Shown here: in pieces, positions 16,401-57,574 of the stretch | How the letters are laid out: every line of letters begins with the position of its first letter | Numbering within the stretch: the stretch's first letter is position 1 | Source: a candidate division KSB1 bacterium | Lineage (GTDB): Bacteria; Zhuqueibacterota; Zhuqueibacteria; Residuimicrobiales; Krinioviventaceae | Assembly: GCA_034521575.1 (NCBI GenBank) | Contig: JAXHMJ010000002.1 | Location: forward strand, 590,706 to 654,705 | Direction of reading: 5' to 3' | DNA length: 64,000 nucleotides | Translations under genes and position numbers: made by a program | The notes under the pieces: model-generated | What the model saw: only the letters and a program-made list of their open reading frames with translations | Databases searched by the model: none | What the model was told of the DNA's origin: nothing

Positions 16401-17177
16401 TCACTGCTTGAGTAAAGGTGAATGTATATTCGATTTATGAATACGCACCAATACATAATAAAGCTGATTCTTCCAGTCCGGATAGCGTTCCAGAATATGA
16501 ATGTTTTCCAGATGGAACCTTAACTCGAGAAACGAAATCTTTGTAAACCCCTCCTGCGGTGAACTGGTTTTTTTCAGGATTACAATATTGTGGAATCTGA
16601 CAGCCACATGCGTCAGGATGGAAAATACGGCCTGTTCTTCCGCGGTTTTCCAGGCATCGTTTTCCCGTCCCTGTGACGTATACATGCCGACTCCGTAATA
16701 GTATTGATCGCTTTCAAAACAGAATTTTTCGATCCACCAGGGACGTTTTAGCGTTTGAATATCGACCAGCGGTACAGAATCGAGTTTTATGCTGTCCATT
16801 GAAAACGCCTGAATATAGTCTTTGGTGAGCAGGTCAATATCATATCGCTGTAATGGAATAATTCGGGAGCGCAGATTGTCTGCGGATTGTTCAGAAAACC
16901 AGTAATAATATTCGCTGTTTTTTAAAACGTCATCGCGTCCGGGGTATTCAAAGACCTCGAGGTGCCCGTTGACCACACAATCGGAATAGGCTGTTAGCAT
17001 GCTGACGACGTCTTCTTTGGCGGACAGGCCGTTATAGGAATAGCCGGTGGTGATGTTGGGATATTTGTAGGGATAAAGAAACCATTCGGGGTAGCTGTTG
17101 ACGCTCCAGAGCGGTTCGGGGATGAAAAGCAACATGATAAAAATACAGACATCAATCCATTTCATAGGAGCGTCCAT
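16401..17177 (-). CDS. Exported LPP20-like protein
   Basis: 258 residues with an N-terminal hydrophobic signal segment (VCIFIMLLFIPEPLWS). The region YYYGVGMYTSQGRENDAWKT followed by AEEQAVFSILTHVAV resembles the LPP20/SIMPL-type motif (Gly-x-Gly, DAW, alternating Ala), found in lipoproteins and periplasmic proteins of unknown function. First gene of the envelope operon. An in-frame ATG 12 bases further in (17165) is an alternative start. Function unknown. Confidence 0.55.
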   Translation of the reverse strand: MDAPMKWIDVCIFIMLLFIPEPLWSVNSYPEWFLYPYKYPNITTGYSYNGLSAKEDVVSMLTAYSDCVVNGHLEVFEYPGRDDVLKNSEYYYWFSEQSADNLRSRIIPLQRYDIDLLTKDYIQAFSMDSIKLDSVPLVDIQTLKRPWWIEKFCFESDQYYYGVGMYTSQGRENDAWKTAEEQAVFSILTHVAVRFHNIVILKKTSSPQEGFTKISFLELRFHLENIHILERYPDWKNQLYYVLVRIHKSNIHSPLLKQ

Positions 17178-26350: not shown

Positions 26351-27269
26351 TTGGGGTTGAACACATCCACACGGCAGAACCAGCCGAAACGCCTCAATCA
26401 GGTGAGGGGAGCGCTGCGCGCGAGCCATTACAGTTTGCGGACTGTGCGAACGTATATCAGTTGGATAATAAAGTTTGTTAAATATCATAATCTTAAACAG
26501 GCTTGTAGCGCGATCAAATTTTTGTATCGCAACACGCTTGATAGGTTGATCACCCGCATTTGCACTGCCTGGTTACCGGAGGCGGATTATCCAATGACGG
26601 CTCTCGTTCAACCCGCGCAAGACGAATCAGAAATGTCATGTTTTTATACATGTGAATGTGATATCGGATTTGTTCAAAAAGAAATTTATGGCGTATCTAA
26701 ATGAGGCCTGGCAAGAGGATAGATTAGGGTTTTATGGCAAGATTCAGTACTTGAAACATGAGAACTCGTTCAAATTATTCAAGAAAAAGCTGTACAAGAA
26801 AAAGTGGATTACGTTTTGCAAAGATGTTTATCGCGATCCTGAACGAGTGATTGATTATCTGGGCCGCTATACGCACCGGGTTGCGATCAGCAATTACCGG
26901 TTTATCAACCACCATAGAGGTATAAAATAATGTTTTCGGTGTCACAATTTCAAAAAAAATAGTCGGGGGCCATTGGAGATGTACGTTTTGGCGAGTTTTA
27001 TTGAATGTGAAAAGAAAAAAAGAGAATGAAAATAGATAAATTTTTGAAAATTGTTTCTATAATCCATGAAATTGAGCAAAAGAGCAAAACTTTTAACACT
27101 ATGATACTGGATAGAGATAGGTATAGACCGCGGCATCGTTCAACCGGTATTTTATCCAGCATTGAGCTTGTTTGTTTGACCATTTATAACTTTGTAATCA
27201 ACCCTGGAAGAGCCGCAGTTATGTGCGGTTTTTTCCGGGCTCAACGCAGGATAAAATACTTGATGTTAG
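26351..27269 (+). mobile_element. Degenerate recombinase/IS91-type repeat, copy 1 (chimeric start)
   Basis: Begins with the N-terminal part of a tyrosine recombinase of integron-integrase type (PKRLNQVRGALRASHYSLRT). At about 26489 this passes directly into the sequence shared with copies 2 and 3 (LKQACSAIKFLYRNTL). Then comes IS91-type (HUH) transposase sequence: NVISDLFKKKFMAYLNEAW, KKWITFCKDVYRDPERVIDY, LGRYTHRVAISNYR. It is frameshifted at TTTTATACATGTGAATG in all copies. The right end carries the hairpin GCCGCAGTTATGTGCGG and stops at GATGTTAG (27269), immediately followed by toxin-antitoxin operon 1. Clearly inactive. Confidence 0.7.
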
Positions 27270-27586: not shown

Positions 27587-27876
27587 AACTAGATAAATTT
27601 GAAAAAGATATTGAAGATAATATTTCTGAATATAAACCTGTATCTGCAAAAAGTAAAAAAAAGATTGATTCGATTATTAGGAAATCAAAAGAGAAAAAGA
27701 GTATAAACTTACGAATTAACAATTATGATTTAGAATTATTAAAACAAAAGGCAGAACAGGAAGGCATTCCATATCAGACATTGATTTCAAGCATCCTGCA
27801 CAAGTATCTTACCGATCAGTTAATTGAACAAAAGGATATTATAAAAAGTGTTCAAATTTTAAAATATGGCAGCTAA
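27583..27876 (+). CDS. CopG/BrnA-like ribbon-helix-helix antitoxin
   Basis: 97 residues, Lys-rich N-terminus and a ribbon-helix-helix domain in INLRINNYDLELLKQKAEQE followed by GIPYQTLISSILHKYLTDQL. It would neutralise the BrnT-like toxin and repress the shared promoter. Start ATG overlaps the toxin stop. The next recombinase repeat begins two bases after the stop codon. Confidence 0.7.
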   Translation: MKLDKFEKDIEDNISEYKPVSAKSKKKIDSIIRKSKEKKSINLRINNYDLELLKQKAEQEGIPYQTLISSILHKYLTDQLIEQKDIIKSVQILKYGS

Positions 27877-47522: not shown

Positions 47523-48640
47523 TCAGCTTTTGCGGCAGTCCGGTTGATCGCGGTGCGGGCGGTTCATAACCACCTGCCAGAGTTGATTGTGCCGGCCCCG
47601 GAATCCGCCGGCGCTGCTCAACAGATAATAGCGCCACATGCGGTAAAAGCGTTCGCTGTATGTATGCTTTAGGTCCGGCCAGGCGTTTTCAAAGTTACGA
47701 TACCAGGCCATCAGCGTCGGATCGTAATCCTGTCCAATATTGTGCCAGTCCTCGACAATGAATAATCCTTCCATAGCACTTGCCAGCTGGGCAATGGACG
47801 GCAGCTGTCCGTTCGGGAATATATACGTGGTGGTCCAGGGATCGGTAATCGCCAAACTCAGATTGCCGCCGATGGTGTGAAAAAAGGCCAGACCGTCCGG
47901 TTTGAGGGTGCGGTCTATACGGTTTCCATATAGGTGCGATAATTTTTATGTCCCACATGTTCCATGACGCCGATAGAAATGACGCGGTCGAATGGACCGC
48001 TTACATTGCGGTAATCCTGCAATTGGATATCTACCGGCAGATGCGAATAATGTTCGTTGGCCCATTCGACCTGTTTTCGCGATACAGTCACCCCGGTGAC
48101 CTCGGCGCCGTATTTCTCGGCCGCATATCCGGCAAAACCGCCGAATCCGCAGCCCAGTTCCAGAACCGTCATGCCCGGTTCCAATCCGATCTTCCGGCAG
48201 ATCAGATCCAGTTTGTTCTCCTGGGCCTGGTCAAGATTTTCTGCATCCTTCCAGTAGGCGCAGGTATAGTTCATGCGTTTGTCCAGCATGGCCTCGTAAA
48301 GATCATTGCCGATATCGTAATGATGTTTACCGACGTTGAAAGCGCGGCCGCGACTTTGCAGATTGAACAGTTTGGCGCGCAGCACATGCCAGAACAGGCT
48401 CAGATTGCCCTTGATCTGTGACGGCAGATCGGCGCGGATGACTTGATTGATAAACTCGTCCAGCTGTTCACAGTCCCACCAGCCATCCATGTAGGATTCG
48501 CCAAGTCCGATTGACCCCTTGGCCAGCACACGCCGGTAGAAATCCGGATGGTTCACCCGGATATCAAACGGACGATCACCATTGACCCTGATATCCGCTT
48601 TTTCCAAAAGATTGCGAAACAGTAATTCTTCCCTAAACAT
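47523..48640 (-). CDS. cfa: Cyclopropane-fatty-acid-synthase-like methyltransferase (one frameshift)
   Basis: About 372 residues. FYRRVLAKGSIGLGESYMDG WW.C, HYDIGNDLYEAMLDKRMNYT and LELGCGFGGFAGYAAEKYGA are conserved in SAM-dependent CFA synthases. The C-terminus reads EDWHNIGQDYDPTLMAWYRN and FYRMWRYYLLSSAGGFRGRH. The frame breaks at about 47917-47922 (METV to IDRTLKPDGLAFFHTIGG), one base from continuity. Adds a methylene or methyl group to unsaturated phospholipid acyl chains. Confidence 0.85.
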
Positions 48641-48830
48641 GGTCTCCTCCTGAAAATAGGTCTCTGGCTTTAATTATTGCAACAGGTTCAGGTTTTGAAA
48701 AATTCTGTAAAATTTGAAAAAATGTCATCGATGTTTTGGCAGGGTATATCCTGAACGCCGACTGTGTTTCAGTTTATTATTTCCGGTTTGTTTTTTTATT
48801 TTAAACGTTATCAATGCTGTGAAATTTAAC

Positions 48831-53514: not shown

Positions 53515-54270
53515 TCAAAAATGACCGTGTTGAATGAAACGCACGGCACAGTTTATCGTGCTGTCTTTTTTTGTGATAACATGATGATTGGCCGGTACAA
53601 TTATAAAATCATTCATACCTTTTTCTTTTGTGTTTTCGATCGATACCCTTCCGTCATCTTTGCCCGGAATGATCAAAGATGCAACGGGATTGATGCTTCG
53701 GCTGCCGGCAATGATACCTGTCTCGTGTTCAAGAGGAGGAAGTGAATTGACAAAACTGTCCTTCCGGCTGCCCAGCTGCATGCCGGCCGGACTGTTCAGT
53801 TTTGCGAAAAGCGGAACCCAGTTCAGACGGCTTACAAGTTCGCTTCCCTGATTGACCGGCGCGATCATCACAATCCGGTGGACCCGGCAGGGATGCGGTT
53901 TCTGCAGGGTATAGCGTATCAACGCATTGCCCATCGAGTGACCGATAAAATGTACAGTATCGCATTCGGATTTGCATTCTTCCAGTGCCACACCTATCGC
54001 AGTGTCTGCCAATGCCTGAATTTTATATTTGGACGACGGATAATCGAGGTTGAGCACATGATATCCGGAATCGACCAGCATATCTTGAAGTTTGTGCATG
54101 AACGAGCTGTTTGCCCGCAGTCCGTGTACCAGAACAACGCATTCTCTGCCGGTCGTATCCGGGTGCTGCCAATGGTATTGAAAACCGTTGGAGCACCCGG
54201 AAATTAGAGAGACGAGAATGATCAGGAAAGAACAAAATCTCAAAGCCGTAGACTGTTCGTTGTCACGCAT
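53515..54270 (-). CDS. Lipoprotein alpha/beta-hydrolase (lipase-like)
   Basis: 251 residues. Lipobox SLISGCSNG, oxyanion HG in VVLVHGLRANSSFM, nucleophile elbow FIGHSMGNALIRYTL, Asp in LIIPGKDDGRVS and His in VPANHHVITKK: a complete catalytic triad. The start ATG overlaps the gnd stop by 8 bases, so translation is coupled. An unusual partner for sugar catabolism; possibly it removes esters (acetyl/acyl) from imported sugars. Confidence 0.75.
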   Translation of the reverse strand: MRDNEQSTALRFCSFLIILVSLISGCSNGFQYHWQHPDTTGRECVVLVHGLRANSSFMHKLQDMLVDSGYHVLNLDYPSSKYKIQALADTAIGVALEECKSECDTVHFIGHSMGNALIRYTLQKPHPCRVHRIVMIAPVNQGSELVSRLNWVPLFAKLNSPAGMQLGSRKDSFVNSLPPLEHETGIIAGSRSINPVASLIIPGKDDGRVSIENTKEKGMNDFIIVPANHHVITKKDSTINCAVRFIQHGHF

Positions 54271-55714
54271 TATAAGTTGAAGCGGATGTCTGTCCGCCTT
54301 TACCGGTCCAGTTTGTATGGAAGAATTCGCCGCGGGGTTTATCGATACGCTCATACGTGTGGGCGCCGAAATAGTCGCGCTGCGCCTGAAGCAGATTCGC
54401 AGGCAGGCGTTCGCTGCGGTATCCGTCGTAAAATGCCAGCGCTGTGCTGAGAGCCGGGATGGGAATACCGATTTCGAATGCTTTGCCGACCACACGGCGC
54501 CATCCGGGCAGCGCTTCCTGTATCGCGTCTTTAAAAAACGGATCCAGCAGCAAATTCACCAGTTCCGGATTGCGTTCATACGCTTCCTTGATTTTTCCCA
54601 GAAATGCGGAACGGATGATACAGCCGCCGCGCCACATGAGGGCAATACCGCCGTAATTCAGATTCCAGTTATATTCCTGCGCAGCAGCGCGCATCAGCTG
54701 AAATCCCTGGGCATAGCTGACGATCTTGGAAGCATAGAGGGCCTGTTCCAGATCCTGTATAAACTGTTTTTTATCACCGGTGAATGGAGTGTCCGGACCT
54801 TTTAACTGTTTTGATGCTTCAACGCGTTCATCCTTTAACGCGGATAAATTTCGCGCAAACACCGCTTCACCGATCAGCGTGGTCGGCTGGCCCTGGTTCA
54901 GCGCTTCGATGGCTGTCCATTTGCCGGTGCCTTTTTGTCCCGCCGTGTCCAGAATATAGTCCAGCACATACTCGCCGTTTTCATCTTTATAGTTCAAAAT
55001 ATCCCGAGTGATCTCGATCAGATAACTGTCCAGTTTTCCGGTGTTCCATTCGGAAAAAACCTGGTGCATATCCTGATTGCTCATGCCCAGCCCGCGTTTC
55101 ATAATGGCATAGGTTTCGTTGATCATCTGCATATCACCGTATTCGATACCGTTATGGGTCATTTTGACAAAATGACCGGCGCCGTTTTCACCAACCCAGT
55201 CGCAGCAGGGTTCACCGTCATCAGTATGGGCGGCAATGGTCTGGAAAATAGTTTTTACATGCGGCCACGCGTCCGGAGAACCGCCGGGCATCATGGATGG
55301 ACCTTTTAGCGCGCCTTCTTCACCACCGGATACCCCGGTGCCGATATACAGCAATCCTTTTTCTTCCAGATATTCGGTACGGCGCATGGTATCGGGAAAA
55401 TGACTGTTGCCGCCGTCAATGATAATATCGCCTTTTTCCAGATAGGGAATTATCTTGTCTATAAATATATCCACGGGTTTGCCCGCCTTGACCATCAGCA
55501 TAACGCGCCGGGGACGCTTCAGGCTTTGTACCAGTTCCTCAATGGAATAGCAGCCTTTGATTTGTTTGCCCTTGGCCCGGCCCTCTACAAAATCAGTCAC
55601 CTTGGAGGTGGTTCGGTTATAACAGGCAACCTTAAACCCTTTGCTTTCCATGTTTAAAATCAGGTTTTCTCCCATCACCGCAAGACCGATGATGCCGATA
55701 TCATGTTCTGCCAT
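54263..55714 (-). CDS. gnd: 6-phosphogluconate dehydrogenase, decarboxylating
   Basis: 483 residues, full length. NADP site GIIGLAVMGENLILNMESKG, substrate/catalytic region GNSHFPDTMRRTEYLEEKGL, IGTGVSGGEEGALKGPSMMP, and catalytic Lys184 in HFVKMTHNGIEYGDMQMINE, with a C-terminal GGQTSASTYNA. It makes ribulose-5-phosphate from 6-phosphogluconate, linking gluconate-type sugar acids to the pentose-phosphate pathway. Intact, in operon between the thioredoxin-TPR and lipase genes. Confidence 0.97.
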   Translation of the reverse strand: MAEHDIGIIGLAVMGENLILNMESKGFKVACYNRTTSKVTDFVEGRAKGKQIKGCYSIEELVQSLKRPRRVMLMVKAGKPVDIFIDKIIPYLEKGDIIIDGGNSHFPDTMRRTEYLEEKGLLYIGTGVSGGEEGALKGPSMMPGGSPDAWPHVKTIFQTIAAHTDDGEPCCDWVGENGAGHFVKMTHNGIEYGDMQMINETYAIMKRGLGMSNQDMHQVFSEWNTGKLDSYLIEITRDILNYKDENGEYVLDYILDTAGQKGTGKWTAIEALNQGQPTTLIGEAVFARNLSALKDERVEASKQLKGPDTPFTGDKKQFIQDLEQALYASKIVSYAQGFQLMRAAAQEYNWNLNYGGIALMWRGGCIIRSAFLGKIKEAYERNPELVNLLLDPFFKDAIQEALPGWRRVVGKAFEIGIPIPALSTALAFYDGYRSERLPANLLQAQRDYFGAHTYERIDKPRGEFFHTNWTGKGGQTSASTYNA

Positions 55715-55726
55715 TTTATTACTCCT

Positions 55727-56761
55727 TTATTGTTTTTTAAATGTCTGCAAATTATCTCGATAGTATTCATTGTCCGGATCCAGGTCGAATGCTTGCTGCA
55801 TGGCCCTGATGGCCTCAGTCGTATCGCCGTTGGCATAATACAGCCATCCCAGGGTATCCCAAATGGAAGAATTGTCAGGGTCCAGTTTGACCGCTTTTTC
55901 CGCTACCTGGATGGCCCGGTCGTATTTTTTATGATATTTGTATTCAAATACGGTCCAGGCATAGGCATTCATCAATCCCGCATCCCGGGGCAGCTCTTTT
56001 AGGGCTTTTTCATAATAATAGAACGTCTTTTGTGTGTCCGCCTGAGCATTATGGGAACGGGCCAAAGTAACGTACGCATCGCTTTTCTTTTCCCGGTCAA
56101 GTTGCGGAATCAGTTCAAGCAAGGGGGCATCATTCTGATGGTTCCGGGCCTGATACGTGGCGATCTGGTAACACGCCTGCTGTGCATATTTGTCACCGGG
56201 ATCATCTGTGAGCTTTATCACGCGTCTGAAATAGGGTTGTGCGTTTTTCGCTTCAAACCGATCCATGTATTTTTCAGCGAGTTTAAACGTGATTTCGACA
56301 TCCATGGAATCTTGCCGATACTTTTTCTGCAGCATTGACAATGTGTTCCGGTTGTGTGCATAGTCTGTCAGTTTCTGCATATACTTGTCCGGATTGTTTG
56401 CAAATCCCACGATACGGTCGCGTTCCGATCCGTCCGGGGCCAGCACAATGACGGTCGGAAATCCCCGCATATGGTACAATTCCCGGAGCTCTTTATAATT
56501 TCCTTTATTTTTAACAATTTTTACAGCGACAAACAGCTCGTTAATCTTTTGTGCGTGTTCTTTATCCTGGAAAACCAACTGGTCCAGCTTTTTGCAGGGG
56601 CCTCAGGTCGGCGAATAAAAATCAACCAGCACCGGTTTGTTTTTTGCACCTGCCAGCTCAAGCGCTGTTTTATGAGAATCGACAAATGACACAGTTGACT
56701 TGCCGCAGGCCGCAAACAGAGCGAAAAGAGAACCGAACAGTATCACCAATAATTGCTTCAT
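55727..56761 (-). CDS. Thioredoxin-like TPR lipoprotein, candidate selenoprotein (U-G-P-C active site)
   Basis: Continuous frame of 344 codons from ATG 56761 if TGA at 56603-56605 is read through. Lipobox FALFAACGKS; thioredoxin start KNKPVLVDFYSPT; then TGA-GPCKKLDQLVFQD, where TGA holds exactly the first Cys of CGPC; YHMRGFPTVIVLAPDGSERD supplies the cis-Pro region. Four or five TPR-like repeats follow (YYYEKALKELPRDAGLMNAY; SIWDTLGWLYYANGDTTEAI). A hairpin fitting the bacterial SECIS consensus lies just after the TGA. Without selenocysteine the protein would stop after 52 residues. Envelope disulfide-type redox role likely. Confidence 0.7.
56567..56587 (-). promoter_or_regulatory. Candidate bacterial SECIS hairpin
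   Basis: Beginning 15 bases after the TGA, CTGGACC-AGTT-GGTTTTCCAG can pair as CUGGA/UCCAG plus CC/GG with a UUU bulge, giving a four-base apical loop AGUU with G among the first two positions. The loop starts 22 bases after the UGA, within the published 16-37 base range. Not folded computationally. Confidence 0.5.
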
Positions 56762-56794: not shown

Positions 56795-57574
56795 TTAAAT
56801 GGTCATGGCTGAAAAACCGCCGTCCACTCGGATAATGGAACCGGTAACAAAAGAGGAAGCCTTTTCCGATGCCAGCCAGATGACAGCCCCGATAAGCTCT
56901 TTGGGATCACCAAAGCGGTTCATCGGCGTGTGTCCCATAATGTCTTTAACACGCTCCTCGGTCAAAATCTTTCGGTTTTGTTCCGCCGGAAAAAAGCCGG
57001 GCGCCAGGGCGTTGACGCGTATCTTTTTTTGTGCCCATTCGCGGGCCAGAAACTGGGTCAGATTATTGATACCGGCCTTGCTGATACTGTAAGAACAGAC
57101 ACGGGACAGCGGAGGACCGGACGAAGCCGAAGAAATATTGATGATGCTGGCCGGCTTGTCCGCATTTATGATACGCTGCCCGAAAACCTGACAGGCGAAA
57201 AATGTGCCTTTTAGGTTGACGCCCATAATTTTATCATACTCTGCTTCAGTGATATCGAAAAAGGGGGTGGAGGAATTGACACCGGCCGCATTGATGAGAA
57301 TATCCGGCTCACCCCGGGTTGTAGCGATATGCTGCGCGCATTCTTCAATGTTGTCGCGGTTCAGAACATTGCAGACAAGCGCTTCAACCTCAATATCCAT
57401 ATTTCGCAGACGCTCAACCTCGGCGTCACAATTCTGCGCATTGATATCCAGTAACACCAGGCGGCAACCCGCCTTTCCAAGTCCTTCAGCCATCGCCTGG
57501 GACAGCACTCCCGTGCCACCGGTGATCACTGCGGTTTTTCCGTTTAGCTGATACAATTCTTGAATATAACTCAA
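56795..57574 (-). CDS. SDR-family oxidoreductase (KduD/mannonate-oxidoreductase-like), paralog 1
   Basis: 259 residues. NAD(P) motif VITGGTGVLSQAMAEGLGKA, NAAGVNSSTPFFDITEAEYD, catalytic Ser in INISSASSG, YSISKAGINNLTQFLAREWA, and C-terminal VTGSIIRVDGGFSAMTI. Very similar to the SDR at 50621, so probably a duplication within the operon with diverged specificity. It would oxidise or reduce a sugar acid delivered by the TRAP system. Eleven bases after the LacI stop. Confidence 0.85.
   Translation of the reverse strand: MSYIQELYQLNGKTAVITGGTGVLSQAMAEGLGKAGCRLVLLDINAQNCDAEVERLRNMDIEVEALVCNVLNRDNIEECAQHIATTRGEPDILINAAGVNSSTPFFDITEAEYDKIMGVNLKGTFFACQVFGQRIINADKPASIINISSASSGPPLSRVCSYSISKAGINNLTQFLAREWAQKKIRVNALAPGFFPAEQNRKILTEERVKDIMGHTPMNRFGDPKELIGAVIWLASEKASSFVTGSIIRVDGGFSAMTI

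Follow-up and report, generated by a model that had tools for sequence, protein, structure and literature searches.

A candidate selenocysteine-containing thioredoxin-TPR lipoprotein family in candidate division KSB1

A gene on the minus strand of a candidate division KSB1 genome carries an in-frame TGA at exactly the position where a thioredoxin would have the first cysteine of its active site, which raises the question of whether this codon ends the gene, reflects an error or specifies selenocysteine (Sec). Here we describe this gene, which lies in a 64,000 nt stretch of genomic DNA (the window), together with its relatives across the phylum. We conclude that the window gene very probably encodes a genuine selenoprotein (probability roughly 0.95), with Sec predicted from sequence comparison at residue 53, and that the selenoprotein family is real, since the same feature recurs in distant relatives.

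Gene, domains and predicted chemistry

The reading frame runs from an ATG at 56761 to a TAA at 55729-55727 on the minus strand, and the TGA at 56605-56603 is its single interruption (Table 1). Translation around this codon (...LVDFYSPT-U-GPCKKLDQLVF...) places it where a CGPC thioredoxin motif has its first Cys, so that both the Cys replacement and the otherwise open frame proposed in a preliminary description of this DNA were borne out. The same is true of the thioredoxin and TPR features that it had reported: Pfam thioredoxin domains span the TGA with scores above cut-off (PF13098, 47.5 bits; PF13899, 43.3 bits), PF00085 matches at 40.0 bits, and TPR repeats follow the thioredoxin domain (PF07719, 61.3 bits). 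An AlphaFold model of the protein using 14 sequences (pLDDT 93.4, pTM 0.83) sets residue 53 immediately before the active-site helix at 54-64, where the nucleophile of a thioredoxin usually sits, and has a TPR-type helical array at residues 141-343. The lipobox signal peptide that had been described stands in part, as the LFAAC motif offers Cys19 for lipid attachment but has an atypical Phe at -3, the orthologs in genomes G007 and G002 having LAAC.

Table 1. Features of the locus, in window coordinates.
Feature	Position	Strand	Description or basis
Proposed selenoprotein gene, thioredoxin-TPR	55727..56761	minus	Signal peptide/lipobox, thioredoxin_2/7 with UGPC, TPR repeats at the C-terminus; 344 residues, ending in TAA
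In-frame UGA, proposed Sec codon, residue 53	56603..56605	minus	Aligned codon is TGA at 10 other loci and encodes Cys at three
TGC, resolving Cys56 of the UGPC motif	56594..56596	minus	Sequence, alignment with homologs
Signal peptide with lipobox-like LFAAC	56705..56761	minus	Sequence; putative lipid-attachment Cys19; low-confidence N-terminus in model
Putative bacterial SECIS core AGCUG-GAC-CAGUU	56577..56589	minus	Loop starts with G 18 nt after UGA
Extended putative SECIS, outer stem interrupted by bulges	56566..56598	minus	-7.1 kcal/mol
Upstream short-chain dehydrogenase (SDR)	56795..57574	minus	Same neighbour in G002, G007, G009
Downstream 6-phosphogluconate dehydrogenase-like gene	54263..55714	minus	Same neighbour in G002, G009

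Read with Sec, the gene would specify an exported protein, probably with a lipid anchor, whose thioredoxin_2/7 domain is a relative of the C-terminal domain of DsbD and leads into a TPR superhelix. In the mechanism that we propose, the Sec53 selenolate would attack a client disulfide, Cys56 would resolve the selenenylsulfide, a membrane thiol-reducing system of the DsbD/CcdA type would recharge the protein, and the TPR superhelix would serve to bind the client or a partner. The protein is most likely an envelope thiol-disulfide oxidoreductase, its partner and client being conjectural, and we lean towards the reductase direction of electron flow. It is possible, though we hold it somewhat doubtful, that the selenoprotein is instead mainly a disulfide oxidase or isomerase, or a peroxide or stress reductase, given that the closest PDB entry to the thioredoxin part by sequence is the putative disulfide isomerase 2kuc and that sequence cannot tell the direction of a CxxC-type site; against this, the next matches are PDI, the DsbD C-terminal domain and thioredoxins, and the redox residues are separated by a GP dipeptide, as is typical of reducing thioredoxins.

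Recurrence of the codon and the Sec machinery

Searches covering the host's family, class and phylum yielded 14 loci whose sequence covers the active site, including the window gene and the G024 locus, which was counted although a frameshift directly follows the motif in its assembly. TGA occupies exactly the same codon at 11 of these loci, in 10 genomes (10 loci in nine genomes besides the window gene), a recurrence far above what chance would give, with UGPC in the host genome (G000), G007, G009 and G047, UGGC in G024, G040, G042, G043 and G079, and UGSC and UGSQAC in the two genes of G078. Three homologs with uninterrupted frames have Cys at the Sec position (CTVC in G002, CSPC in G026 and CMPC in G066), and the alignment that the preliminary description had proposed as a check accordingly found Sec or Cys in every relative at the position of 56603-56605. 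All belong to the same phylum and share only 24-49% identity with the window protein, which argues that the TGA has persisted while the sequences drifted far apart. A scan of genome contigs with the single window protein gave no match; alignment of closer sequences did find matches. The tree has few rows and long branches; in it the Cys forms are dispersed, and G002 is nested within the Sec clade of its family (support 99/99), a position that suggests a Sec-to-Cys change.

The host genome (5.26 Mb in five contigs, 96% complete) contains a tRNA-Sec with anticodon TCA, or UCA in RNA (72.2 bits), selA (535 bits), selB (362 bits) and selD, the last in two adjacent frames (G000:C2:1204-2132) split at about profile position 95, presumably by an assembly indel, the alternative being a real lesion. 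All the components for which a search had been suggested at the outset are thus present, including the tRNA-Sec; for KSB1, a 2022 survey had reported the three genes selA, selB and selD and no selC (PMC9012183). Across the 13 genomes with a homolog, selA was found in 12 (the genome without it is 56% complete), selB in 11 and selD-like matches in 12. As selA is common in the phylum (63 of 82 genomes), its co-occurrence with the homolog is weak evidence, compatible with a Sec-dependent role but not diagnostic of one. SelB would deliver Sec-tRNA(UCA) to the UGA, aided by the downstream stem-loop, to place Sec53 in the UGPC active site. The machinery, the Sec and Cys homologs and the conserved hairpin described below together support the initial interpretation of the gene as encoding a Sec-containing thioredoxin.

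Of the other ways to read the codon, the one that fares best, although we consider it very unlikely, is that UGA terminates translation, so that the gene yields a short peptide from its N-terminal end and, from a start of its own (for example a TTG at 56578), a TPR protein, neither of them with Sec. An ORF at 55727-56578 does exist in a mechanical ORF listing, and the window gene's own hairpin is weak; termination would, however, break a conserved thioredoxin fold at the active site of 11 genes, and it is at odds with the three uninterrupted homologs with Cys at the site and with the presence of the Sec machinery. We give hardly any weight to an error of sequencing or assembly, or to a recent nonsense mutation that has made a pseudogene of a Cys gene. 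This assembly does have frame problems elsewhere, in the split selD, a peroxiredoxin-like gene with off-site TGAs and a seemingly split gene at 47.5-48.7 kb, but the rest of the frame is intact and precisely this codon is TGA at ten further loci, spread over nine further genomes; the preliminary description had cautioned that a TGC might have been miscalled, a concern answered by these independent assemblies of other species. Decoding as another amino acid (Trp, or by near-cognate readthrough) is just as improbable, for nothing specific favours it beyond the compatibility of single-site readthrough with the sequence, whereas UGA apparently ends other genes in the ordinary way (e.g. at 16401-16403, immediately ahead of the ATG of the next gene) and hence is not globally reassigned, the aligned residue in homologs is Cys and not Trp, and tRNA-Sec and SelB are present.

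Two further loci of the host genome deserve mention. The peroxiredoxin-like gene (L078, G000:C3:730251-730559), with two in-frame TGAs, was considered as a second selenoprotein candidate and rejected, as the TGAs lie off the active site and look like part of a frameshifted stretch. At 47526-48673 of the window, two adjoining and slightly overlapping ORFs are seemingly parts of one gene, possibly split by an assembly frameshift.

A putative SECIS stem-loop

The bacterial SECIS model has a loop of 3-9 nt with G in its first two positions, a stem of 4-16 bp, a spacing of 16-37 nt and a minimum free energy of at most -7.5 kcal/mol (PMC13188914). Nominally the window gene agrees with this model (loop GAC at +18, 5-bp core, -8.6 kcal/mol over 51 nt from the UGA), but its hairpin taken alone is no better than shuffles (p 0.22; RNA-fold z +0.3 to +1.2), so that support for a SECIS, for which the preliminary description had proposed folding this stretch, comes from comparison across the family and not from the window stretch by itself.

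Most of the TGA genes have, 17-24 nt downstream of the UGA, a stem-loop whose loop opens with G, examples being AUUGCUG-GGU-CAGCAAU in G079, ACUGCUG-GGU-CAGCAGU in G078b and AACAAGCUG-GAU-CAGCUUGUU in G007. Because Leu-Asp-Gln codons make CUG-GAY-CAG palindromic by themselves, synonymous-codon shuffles were used for comparison. The combined p against these shuffles was about 2e-6 over 11 loci, some being significant alone and others not, and in seven genes chosen for sharing one register (GCUG-GAC-CAGU in the window gene) 92.9% of cells pair, three pairs are changed on both sides, and the covariation score was reached by 0 of 500 shuffles and lost in slid registers; the combined p and the shuffle counts alike make the evidence look stronger than it is, since the rows are related and the seven genes were picked for their shared register. 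The putative second Sec paralog in G078 (L047, G078:C29:85882-86751) has the unusual spacing U-G-S-Q-A-C, with two extra residues, and its hairpin is displaced by the same six bases.

The hairpin originally drawn for the window gene, CTGGACC-AGTT-GGTTTTCCAG, is present in its letters with a loop that begins 22 nt after the UGA. Across ten genes, however, this register (CUGGACC-AGUU-GGU..., loop AGUU at +22) has no covariation, and the loop that does covary lies at +18. Perfect 5-bp stems with the loop at +22 occur in G042, G043 and G047, and the register may therefore differ between clades. Rfam SECIS_1 (RF00031) had no match in the genome, nor in any control, so that its silence is uninformative. 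Two of the three Cys genes are without such a hairpin, and G002 has one (p 0.04). In this Cys ortholog (L003 1501-2508), which lies in the same operon, the hairpin CGCUUUUUGGAAAAGAGCG stands at the SECIS position and is perhaps a remnant left after a Sec-to-Cys change.

Neighbourhood, known relatives and significance

Within the host's family, a TRAP transporter, the SDR, the thioredoxin-TPR gene and 6-phosphogluconate dehydrogenase form a conserved run. Further downstream, a lactate racemase-like (Lar_N) gene is shared by G000, G002 and G009, and the neighbourhoods of G000 and G007 include a LacI-type regulator; that of the window gene also holds an alpha/beta hydrolase-like gene and an Asp/Glu racemase. 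Outside the family the thioredoxin-TPR gene has different neighbours, and the job of the protein is therefore probably not specific to the sugar-acid pathway. The linkage to a sugar-acid operon noted in the preliminary description thus holds for the host's own family but not for other parts of the phylum. Elsewhere in the window, the segment 26489-30987 holds direct repeats that are each roughly 300 nt or longer and 95-97% identical, three in number, at 26489, 28272 and 30688, and further repeats at 27874/30290 and 27027/28535 mark a repeated gene cluster.

Sec in UxxC thioredoxins is already known. A 2026 review of 119 selenoprotein families (PMC13188914) includes a Sec-thioredoxin and a PF13098 UxxC "thiol:disulfide interchange protein". 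The latter, a predicted selenofamily (PMC13188914 Table 1; representative WP_011366075.1), shares with the window protein both UxxC and PF13098 (47.5 bits, cut-off 27), but the table gives it no TPR part, and it is by this table description that the window protein is set apart. Selenocysteine thioredoxin (PF00085, UxxC), which has been experimentally verified (PMC13188914), likewise has Sec as the first residue of the thioredoxin motif, whereas the window protein is a predicted exported, two-domain protein that scores better with Thioredoxin_2/7. The best NCBIfam match is TsoB, a rhodanese/DsbD fusion-like selenoprotein (NF045694), at 64.7 bits against a cut-off of 805; the match is confined to the DsbD-like C-terminal domain (profile positions 448-569), and the window protein continues with TPR. 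The Trx7/PDZ selenoprotein (NF041199; 30.3 bits, cut-off 300) also fuses a Sec-containing Thioredoxin_7-type domain to another domain, but combines CxxU with PDZ where the window protein combines UxxC with TPR. YbbN (3qou) shares the order of a thioredoxin domain followed by helical, TPR-like repeats (Foldseek E 8.9e-7), although it superposes weakly (TMq 0.27, rmsd 21.9 A) and the window protein differs in its export signal and proposed Sec active site.

The family and its thioredoxin-TPR architecture appear to be new while the chemical kind, a UxxC Sec protein, is known, because this architecture is absent from the 119 families of the review (PMC13188914) and no NCBIfam model reaches its cut-off for the window protein. 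A text search of the literature for selenoproteins with TPR or tetratricopeptide repeats, which covered neither subscription papers nor unlisted database records, returned nothing relevant.

On balance we favour the broader view that these genes represent a new family of envelope lipoprotein thioredoxin-TPR selenoproteins across KSB1, with Sec and Cys having replaced each other on more than one occasion, and that selenium may here tie envelope redox control to the sugar-acid operons of one bacterial family. The KSB1 Sec machinery, now with a tRNA-Sec found in the host, would thereby gain a specific client, and the inventory of 119 selenoprotein families (PMC13188914) an architecture that it lacked. 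On a practical level, annotation that treats TGA solely as a stop would cut all eleven genes short. The natural Sec/Cys swap within one conserved operon (G002 versus G000, G007 and G009) would offer a clean comparison of the benefit of selenium in an exported thioredoxin.
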